From Candidatus Aenigmatarchaeota archaeon (GTDB lineage Archaea > Aenigmatarchaeota > Aenigmatarchaeia > GW2011-AR5 > JACRAC01), in contig JACRAC010000005.1 in the NCBI GenBank assembly GCA_016213555.1, positions 1-32,492 on the forward strand: a DNA stretch of 32,492 nt, given 5' to 3'. Numbering within the stretch: position 1 is the stretch's first letter; each line of letters starts with the position of its first letter. The translations under genes were made by a program, and so were the position numbers. Below, piece by piece: positions 7,106-32,360 of this stretch. Under the pieces are notes generated by a model. It was not told where the DNA came from, did no database searches, and was given only the letters and a program-made list of their open reading frames with translations.

Positions 7106-7134
7106 ATTAAAAATCTCTCATTTTTGATATAAAA

Positions 7135-7156
7135 TTGAATTTCCTATAAAATTCAA
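7135..7156 (-). promoter_or_regulatory. Leader hairpin or operator before the membrane cluster
   Basis: TTGAATTT (7135-7142) and AAATTCAA (7149-7156) form an 8-bp inverted repeat with a 6-base loop, 30 bases upstream of the ATG at 7105. A TATA-like run ACTATATATTAGG (minus strand, about 7184-7196) lies further upstream, which would place the repeat inside the transcript leader. Confidence 0.45.
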
Positions 7157-7212
7157 CTTAACATAATAAACTTTAGAATAAGCCTAATATATAGTTTAAT
7201 TAGAAAGAAAAT

Positions 7213-7310
7213 TATGTTTGTGTGGTGTCTTGAAGTTTGAAAAACTTTGAGATAGACGCATTCTTTGAATGTGTGGTGTTAGGATGATCATCTTTCATCA
7301 CATCCAGAAC
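7213..7310 (+). ncRNA. Candidate structured RNA with an orphan copy of the 7331-gene leader
   Basis: The 16 bases TATGTTTGTGTGGTGT (7213-7228) are an exact reverse complement of 7972-7987, the leader of the gene at 7331. A second partial copy, TGTGTGGTGT, is at 7270-7279. Between and after lie short hairpins: AAGTTT-gaa-AAACTT, CATTC-ttt-GAATG, and the palindrome GATGATCATC. A TATA-like ATATATAG lies about 20 bases upstream of the first copy on the plus strand. The region has no convincing coding frame. A small RNA or a transcript-end structure is possible. The C/D-box pattern was checked and is incomplete. Confidence 0.35.
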
Positions 7311-7330
7311 ACGTATGATTATAAGAAAAA

Positions 7331-31219: not shown

Positions 31220-31277
31220 TTTGTTACTACCCAAAGATAGCTTTAAATATGTTTCTAGCGTAGTAAATGAAGATACT

Positions 31278-32141
31278 ATGGCATTAGAAACAGTTCAAAT
31301 GATAAACGTTCCAAGAATTCAAGCTTATCCATTAGGAAGTGTTGAAGGTCTTAGAACTTCTAGACAATATGATTTTGAAGGATCTGTAGCAAGAGAAATG
31401 CCCCAGGATAGTCTTGGAAAAGAGTATAAAAATATTCATTCTCAATCAATAGTTCTGGCAGATCAAGCAGTTTTATGGAATACATATTTGCTTTCAAAAC
31501 TTGGAAAAGTTAGCTTGCCTGAAGATTTTGGCGCAGCTCTTGAAACTATGTTTGAAAAAATAGGTTCCGGAAATATAACAAATGATGCTTGTGATTATGA
31601 TAACGGTAAAAAAGGATTGAAAAAAACAAAAGAAACAGACAGATCTGTTAGATGGATCAAACAGCCAGAAAGATTTGAACTAGACAACGGTGTTTGGAAA
31701 GCAATAGGCGGAAAAGAAAAATATATTTTAGTTCCAGAATCGGGATATGTTGAATCAACATGTGATGGTTCATATAATTCAGAAACAGGAACACCATTTT
31801 CAACAGTTGATACAAGAGCAAAAGCAGAAAAAACATGGACAAGCAAAGGATTTGATCCAGAGTTTGCAAGATTAGCAGTATCATATTTCTTTTCAAGAGA
31901 AGAAAAACAAGGTACATCAGCTGTTGGCCGTTGGTACGGCAGTGGCGTTAGTGGTCCGTTCGGTGTCGGCGCGAGCGACGATCCTGGCGATGGCGACGAT
32001 AGTATCGGTGCTTTGCCTTCAGGTAGGTTGTCGAGCGGAGCGAGACCGGTTTCTGAAAAGACCTATTTGGATGGTTTAGCAGAAGGAAAAAATCAAGCTT
32101 TTTCTGAAGTTCAGGCATTTTTGCAAAAAGTAAAAGAATAA
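31278..32141 (+). CDS. Unknown soluble protein with an internal GC-rich segment
   Basis: A 287-residue protein from the ATG at 31278; a TATA box, AGCTTTAAATA, at about 31239-31249 lies inside any longer frame, so the upstream TTG at 31221 is unlikely. The first 210 residues are ordinary mixed sequence (QYDFEGSVAREMPQDSLGKE, LVPESGYVESTCDGSYNSET, KAEKTWTSKGFDPEFARLAV). From about residue 214 to 258 there is a Gly/Ser/Asp-rich linker (SGVSGPFGVGASDDPGDGDD) followed by a normal helical tail. The linker's DNA is about 60 % G+C, far above the rest. No family recognised. Confidence 0.68.
   Translation: MALETVQMINVPRIQAYPLGSVEGLRTSRQYDFEGSVAREMPQDSLGKEYKNIHSQSIVLADQAVLWNTYLLSKLGKVSLPEDFGAALETMFEKIGSGNITNDACDYDNGKKGLKKTKETDRSVRWIKQPERFELDNGVWKAIGGKEKYILVPESGYVESTCDGSYNSETGTPFSTVDTRAKAEKTWTSKGFDPEFARLAVSYFFSREEKQGTSAVGRWYGSGVSGPFGVGASDDPGDGDDSIGALPSGRLSSGARPVSEKTYLDGLAEGKNQAFSEVQAFLQKVKE
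31918..32050 (+). other. GC-rich patch inside the gene at 31278
   Basis: The 120 bases 31921-32040 contain 74 G or C by direct count (40/60 and 34/60 per line), while surrounding lines are clearly AT-rich. Codons such as CGT, GGC, TCG and GCG appear only here. The frame stays open through it. It looks like a separate acquisition or an expanded linker. Confidence 0.75.
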
Positions 32142-32166
32142 AATCTTTCTAACCAAATATTTATTG

Positions 32167-32288
32167 ATCTCTAATGAGATTGTCTCAGACAATATATTTC
32201 AATAAGTTAAAACTTATTGGAGCATCAATGTAGATATTTGATTGAATTTCATTCAATCAATACAGGTAGAATTTTATTCTACCATGTA
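32167..32288. ncRNA. Array of five hairpins, candidate structured RNA
   Basis: Hairpins in order: ATCTC/GAGAT (32167-32180); ATTGTC/GACAAT (32179-32193, overlapping the first); CAATAAGT/ACTTATTG (32200-32219); TTGATTGAAT/ATTCAATCAA (32238-32260, 10 bp, 3-base loop); GGTAGAAT/ATTCTACC (32265-32283), which extends by TACA/TGTA with one bulge to 12 bp. No coding frame covers them. A TATA-like GATATATCC lies beside the array at about 32298-32306 on the minus strand. Transcription and direction are not shown. The rest of 32142-32360 holds nothing else evident. Confidence 0.45.
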
Positions 32289-32360
32289 TGATCCAAGGAT
32301 ATATCTAGCGAATGTTTGAACTACATGCCTGATTATAGAGCTTTTTTAAAATTTTGGTAA

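Follow-up and report, generated by a model that had tools for sequence, protein, structure and literature searches.

The window, by which we mean the whole stretch of 32,492 nucleotides analysed here, belongs to a genome of 879 kb (G000) and carries near its end a plus-strand gene, an intergenic array of five hairpins (H1–H5) and the end of an insertion sequence (IS). These features are listed below, some with partners on a second contig of the same genome (C44, whose positions are given as L060). R1 is a covariance model described further on, G001 a sister genome, RT-16 an Rfam family (RF03019), and hairpins A and B, P1 and P2 are helices of the relatives.

31221–32141, plus strand: predicted target gene of a diversity-generating retroelement (DGR), the open reading frame holding the VR; start codon uncertain
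31920–32021, plus strand: variable region (VR), partner of the TR at L060 (G000:C44) 219–320
32030–32046, plus strand: target-type hairpin within the gene, GTC-GA-GC-GGA-GC-GA-GAC
32154–32356, plus strand: probable leader RNA, 5' part, RT-16-type, cut by the IS; from the R1 match and the identity to G001
32167–32180, plus strand: H1, ATCTC-TAAT-GAGAT, 5 bp, at the position of hairpin A of relatives
32180–32192, plus strand: H2, equal to hairpin B, TTGTC-TCA-GACAA, 5 bp (6 including a pair shared with H1)
32200–32219, plus strand: H3, 9 bp, loop of 2 nt, an insert between hairpin B and P1
32222–32225, plus strand: P1 5' strand, GCAT, pairing with ATGT at 32312–32315
32232–32237, plus strand: P2 5' strand, AGATAT, pairing with ATATCT at 32301–32306
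32238–32260, plus strand: H4, 10 bp, loop of 3 nt, within the P2 insert
32265–32283, plus strand: H5, 8 bp, or 12 bp counting TACA/TGTA past one bulged A, within the P2 insert
32262–32264 and 32285–32287, plus strand: H5 extension, ACA and TGT, beyond the bulged A
32291–32300, plus strand: small cap, ATCC-AA-GGAT (G001 counterpart GTCC-AU-GGAC)
32317–32341, plus strand: RT-16 core, first half, TGAACTACATGCCTGATTATAGAGC; second half at L060 143–217
32349–32356, plus strand: 8-bp target duplication AAATTTTG; second copy at L060 135–142
32357–32492, minus strand: end of the IS, coding for a protein C-terminus

The array at 32167–32288 starts 25 bases 3' of the stop codon that ends the target gene (31221–32141) and is intergenic, as a preliminary description had it and as the positions of the open reading frames confirm. 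That description had also reported five inverted repeats with stems of 5–12 bp, the fourth and fifth of 10 and 12 bp, and had judged them too regular for chance. The repeats are present as described, H5 reaching 12 bp if its extension past the bulged A is counted, and their regularity withstands randomization: the summed perfect-stem length was matched by none of 1000 dinucleotide shuffles of 32167–32288, nor did any of 1000 contain three stems of at least 8 bp. The bare count of stems of at least 5 bp (4) was equalled in 15 of 1000. Folding of 32142–32350 gave z values of −3.97 on the plus and −3.57 on the minus strand. A search of the window for tRNA and tmRNA found none, and Rfam yielded nothing at the gathering score in the window; with E allowed to reach 10, its matches were at chance level. 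We attribute the lack of an Rfam match to the IS, which splits the RNA.

DGRs, which hypermutate chosen genes via an RNA template, are numerous in DPANN archaea; to our knowledge, little is known of the marks of DGR template RNA in DPANN archaea. The TR at L060 219–320 is a repeat of window 31920–32021, and over these 102 bp VR and TR differ by 21 mismatches, 19 of them at TR adenines; the best VR/TR match is 73 with adenine free, as against 21 with C, G or T free. On C44 are also an RT gene (RVT_1, 73.6 bits, L060 673–1698) and Avd (bAvd, 45 bits against a cut-off of 40; NCBIfam DivGenRetAVD, 66.6 bits, below its cut-off of 80). Because of the VR/TR pair with its adenine mismatches, and of Avd and RT on C44, the gene at 31221–32141 is taken to be the DGR target. 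Pfam and NCBIfam searches with this gene gave no match, and it has relatives in 10 of 59 genomes. For the hairpin within it, the 11-mer GAGCGGAGCGA with 3–4 changing flanking pairs was found at 11 distinct loci, the window's included (near-exact pattern, 15 rows). All on one strand, the cassette runs target gene with VR, leader RNA, TR, avd, RT, and the five hairpins sit between the target gene and the TR. With TR/VR, an adjoining RT and Avd, the locus is by its sequence a DGR of a DPANN archaeon. The same cassette order is found on contig C28 of G001, with a hairpin row of different sequence; just 3' of the hairpins (32292–32347) the two are 86% identical over 56 bases. This was the one convincing relative in a DNA search with 206 bp of the window, the others being short; a match in G037 was dropped, as it resembles coding sequence.

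The joining of the two contigs depends on the IS, which may be IS66-like. Its end, from 32357, recurs at 8 other contig ends with 98–100% identity, and both IS ends start GTAACTATTTAGCTC. We compared 11 contigs that end in the opposite side of the IS: AAATTTTG adjoins this other end on C44 and is absent there in the remaining 10. Because C44 is the one contig of these 11 with the 8-bp duplication, and with the backing of its content, it is very probably the continuation of the window; this join is judged from a short duplication, in an assembly that is incomplete. The IS would interrupt the leader RNA in G000, with the TR on one side and the domain plus half of the core on the other, and may impair this DGR copy. 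An 8-nt complement between the RNA halves across the IS was considered and dropped, since it was equalled in 98 of 1000 shuffles. The IS, with GTAA ends and an 8-bp duplication, breaks the G000 assembly at many places (∼20 contig ends).

RT-16 was reportedly first described in a 2017 paper, and its core letters may resemble those of 16S rRNA. The C44 half of the RNA matches RT-16 with 40.6 bits at L060 135–217, 5'-truncated and below the gathering cut-off of 50, while the window half alone found no RT-16 match in the Rfam search. As the RNA is split and neither half reaches the gathering score, we file the G000 copy as the remains of an RT-16-type RNA; a same-strand RT lies nearby, across the IS. 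The pattern of the core half occurred 11 times in the class and once for the reversed control, and RT-16 scored above the cut-off in all 12 relatives tried, each picked for carrying the core motif.

RT relatives were collected from 25 of 156 genomes of the class, plus 80 loci from genome records, nearly all of DPANN archaea; among the 96 RT loci examined near-copies may remain. The motif CTACAYGC...CATRAAATWCA lies 5' of the RT in 71 of the 96. An earlier, looser motif pass, in which identical cores were counted once, had given 76 matches, some of them loose and chance-like. By fixed thresholds a TR/VR pair with adenine mismatches was present at 58 of the 96 loci, and at none of 96 in a thymine control. 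At all 50 loci having both core and TR/VR the TR is 3' of the core, its segment beginning 52–192 nt past it, and the mismatches over these loci number 628 at adenines and 16 elsewhere; the other 21 of the 71 core loci fell below the TR/VR thresholds and were left out of the DGR-positive count. Per genome, RT-16 was found in 23 of the 156 of the class, all within the 25 with an RT, and in none of the remaining 131 (Fisher p 1.5e-25, a value computed, like all our Fisher values, with relatedness of the genomes ignored). None of 14 control genomes contained it. Viral contigs held RT relatives in two cases, one of which (L173) has TR/VR figures identical to those of L126, and gave 0 matches to the conserved core pattern.

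Next to the core, where RT-16 has a simple 5' stem, ten members from four families carry a larger domain instead. Its order is hairpin A, hairpin B, the 4-bp P1, an internal loop CARUGY and P2, followed by UGAACYACAYGC; hairpin B reads TGTC-NNN-GACA in most of the ten. With helix arms chosen by hand, paired cells over the ten members were 50/50 for A, 49/50 for B, 39/40 for P1 and 54/60 for P2, and with arms paired across species the values were 0.61, 0.73, 0.85 and 0.78, respectively. The Avd loci G001_C103, G000_C41 and G133_C4, whose 5' part differs, were excluded from this comparison. When seven members, none of them from the genus of the window, were aligned automatically (A1), 91.7% of cells were paired, with a covariation of 0.390 against 0.257 ± 0.028 in shuffles, none of 500 being as high; slid structures gave at most 48% pairing. 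Hairpin A is poorly aligned in the seven-member alignment (67.9%), and P1 is 100% paired in it, with two pairs changed on both sides. This comparative evidence indicates that the domain is under selection for pairing.

A covariance search across related genomes with a model of the array had been proposed in the preliminary description; a model made from the relatives recovers the array region. R1, built from the seven members with the window's genus left out, matches the 32-kb window at 32154–32330 (32.5 bits, E 1.7e-6) with no second match, and under stricter filters its best match in the whole G000 genome is the same place (E 0.0016; next, E 0.63). The match has hairpin B, P1 and P2 in order 5' of UGAACYACAYGC, with H2 aligned to hairpin B, GCAT/ATGT to P1 and AGATAT/ATATCT to P2. 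H1 lies at the place of hairpin A and is aligned poorly by R1. Against R1, H3 is inserted after B and before P1; H4 and H5 lie in an insert of 60 nt within P2. The idea that the array is a structured RNA is thus borne out by the covariation, by the independent covariance model and by the matches to Rfam on C44 and in relatives; support for a protein-binding array, which had been offered with it, was not found in this analysis. Nor does the likening of the hairpins at 7230–7310 to the array hold, since R1 matches the window at the array only and relatives of 7106–7330 are short, weak matches, found in 12 relatives with a best E of 0.003 and none explaining the hairpins. The hairpins at 7215–7320 lie between two minus-strand genes and fold with z −2.5 on the plus strand, 4 of 200 shuffles being as good, and z −1.4 on the minus strand.

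G001 has hairpins at the three places of H3–H5, with different stems: the 5' arm bases common to the window and G001 are 1/9 for H3, 1/7 for H4 and 5/8 for H5, and the G001 hairpin at the H5 place has the same ACA/TGT extension. As these hairpins keep their places and their arms are unlike, the genus keeps the architecture but not the H3 and H4 stems. Stems lacking preservation by compensatory changes, which by the preliminary description would have counted against it, were not what was seen for H1, H2, P1 and P2, the last two framing H4 and H5; H3 and H4 are replaced at their places by unrelated hairpins in the sister species. In terms of sequence comparison, H1 and H2 are part of an ancestral domain with compensatory changes, and H3–H5 are lineage-specific inserts.

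Tandem hairpins are common in several related genomes. Perfect hairpins occur at ∼6–11 times the expectation from Markov sequence in samples of G001, G010 and G002, and their arrays are often joined by TGTACA or GTAC; the excess is absent from samples of G000 and G056, G000 having 4 adjacent pairs in 106 kb. Examples of such arrays, with 2–6 perfect hairpins each, from G001, G010 and G002 are:

L257, 11782–11956
L260, 7081–7278
L276, 8566–8684
L275, 2427–2524

The arrays have differing stems and like linkers, and there are many per genome. H5, with ATACA before it and ATGTAT after it, fits their style, and a similar hairpin is present on G001:C44 (86% over 29 nt, E 0.004). The H3–H5 inserts may have arisen from the array habit seen in these genomes, an origin that is compatible with a leader role for H1, H2, P1 and P2.

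The domain is nearly confined to DGRs with Avd. In 10 core loci Avd is encoded between TR and RT; 9 of these carry the domain (4 of the 9 are in R1), and the 5' part of the tenth, G000_C41, is of another kind. Among the 61 core loci that lack Avd the domain is absent (best E 0.65). Counted per genome (n = 156), 9 have the domain, 9 have Avd and 8 have both. The exceptions are G071, with Avd, a more distant RT and no domain, and G105, with a weak domain match (E 8e-4) and no Avd. The cassette G010_C17 has domain and Avd, though in a tree of 32 RTs its RT falls among those lacking Avd (95/93), and the grouping of all Avd-type RTs in one clade is rejected there (p-AU 0.0013); a quick tree of 90 RTs agrees. 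As the G010_C17 RT groups with Avd-less RTs, the simplest reading of this single case would be a joint transfer of domain and Avd to a different RT.

Cassettes with other combinations were also noted. L183 (G118_C18) has the domain-bearing leader, TR/VR and Avd without an adjoining RT, and L056 (G010_C30) has a leader followed by an RT fragment, with no TR. Inspection of L222 (G001:C15) by eye showed a VR gene, a TR and an RT-16 core carrying additional inserted hairpins, on a contig without an RT or Avd match; RT and Avd may have to be supplied to this cassette from another place.

We consider it likely that the five-hairpin array makes up the 5' domain of an RT-16-type RNA (RF03019) that acts as the leader of the DGR template RNA. 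Such a leader would be transcribed together with the TR and fold beside it, forming a scaffold on which RT and Avd would assemble to copy the TR. Avd would be served by the extended domain (A, B, P1 and P2), and H3–H5 would be tolerated peripheral growths. In BPP-1 the order is avd-TR-RT, with a structured spacer 3' of the TR; the need met by that 3' structured flank would be served here from the 5' side of the TR. Extending this beyond the window is more tentative: throughout DPANN archaea, RT-16 could serve specifically as the 5' leader of the transcripts that carry DGR templates, with the extended domain as an Avd-specific docking module, exchangeable with avd as a unit among RTs, and with perfect hairpins that keep arriving at fixed permissive sites.

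Other explanations of the array have been considered. Its place directly after a stop codon, together with the frequency of hairpins in several related genomes, would suit a structure that has nothing to do with the template, either a transcription terminator or a fold at the 3' end of the target gene's mRNA. A T-run is absent after all five hairpins, so that the G+C-rich stem followed by a T-run that marks an intrinsic terminator is lacking; furthermore, RT-16 is tied to the RT, with the TR downstream, and G118_C18 and G001:C15 retain RNA and TR without an adjoining RT. We regard a terminator as very unlikely. The frequency of tandem hairpins could also mean that a genomic repeat of ACA-stem-TGT units lies here by chance, with no role in the DGR. 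Many such arrays are present in the G001, G002 and G010 samples, and the style of H5 is theirs, but this accounts for H3–H5 at most: H1, H2, P1, P2 and the core have homologues in four families, and few such arrays occur in G000, which makes a chance repeat an unlikely account of the whole.

A set of DNA cruciforms for DGR homing, comparable to the BPP-1 hairpin 3' of the VR, seems to us highly improbable. BPP-1 does require a hairpin or cruciform past the VR, its structure conserved and its stem sequence free, according to the relevant sections of PMC3240598, where the hairpins lie 4–34 bp past the VR and have GC-rich stems of 7–10 bp and 4-nt loops. The array begins 146 bp past the VR and its stems are AT-rich, whereas the hairpin already present at 32030–32046 fits the BPP-1-type feature; and P1 and P2 enclose further hairpins, as is more readily expected of folded RNA than of a simple cruciform.

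The RNA leader that we favour combines known and new elements. With RT-16 (RF03019) it shares the core CUACAYGC...AUAG...CAUGAAAUACA and its stems, as well as the place before an RT gene; it differs in having domain A, B, P1, P2 for the simple 5' stem, three more hairpins in the genus, the split by the IS and the tie to a DGR TR. Nanoarchaeal DGRs (Paul et al., 2015; PMC4372165) likewise have an RT, an adenine-mutagenised VR/TR and an in-gene GRA-loop hairpin; the portions of that paper covered here describe this target hairpin, not an RNA leader before the TR. As in the BPP-1 DGR, for which we draw on part of PMC3240598, there are RT and Avd, a TR transcript and structured sequences, there shown to be required; unlike in BPP-1, the structured RNA is 5' of the TR and avd comes after the TR. 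Retron msr-msd RNA (PMC8867640) is similarly a structured RNA beside a template and read by a neighbouring RT. Retrons are not known to have TR/VR, adenine mutagenesis or Avd.

The RT-16 family (RF03019 is named in a table row of the Rfam 15 paper, PMC11701678), DGRs in such archaea (PMC4372165) and target hairpins are already known. RT-16 as a DGR template leader was not found in the covered portions of the literature searched, including PMC4372165, PMC8144416, PMC8867640, PMC8143477 and PMC3240598; the 2017 source of RT-16 lay outside this scope. The extended Avd-type domain was likewise not found in the covered parts of the literature on RNA leaders of DGRs. If the leader reading is right, a family typed in Rfam only as sRNA gene is linked to a role in DGR templates, a defined RNA becomes available for RT–Avd assays together with a covariance handle for finding such cassettes, and related RTs with and without Avd, whose leaders are with and without the extra domain, offer a natural comparison.

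Runs of G were observed in and near the RT genes. Just 5' of the RT start, at the Avd/RT junction, a run of 9–11 G is present in 8 of 12 Avd loci scanned:

L060 (G000:C44), 674–682
L064, L065, L067, L070, L082, L089 and L091

Avd and RT form a single open frame with 11 G (L064) and with 10 G (L082), and the frames differ elsewhere; it is possible that the run is a slippage switch or a translation signal. In the 879 kb of G000, runs of at least 9 G occur in two places only, the Avd/RT junction and C55:174–185, where the run adjoins a GC-rich gene resembling another DGR target. Runs of 8–10 G are also found inside the RT frame, 401–565 nt past the start of the RT match, at L107, L125, L127, L142, L169 and L093, and might make the RT phase-variable.
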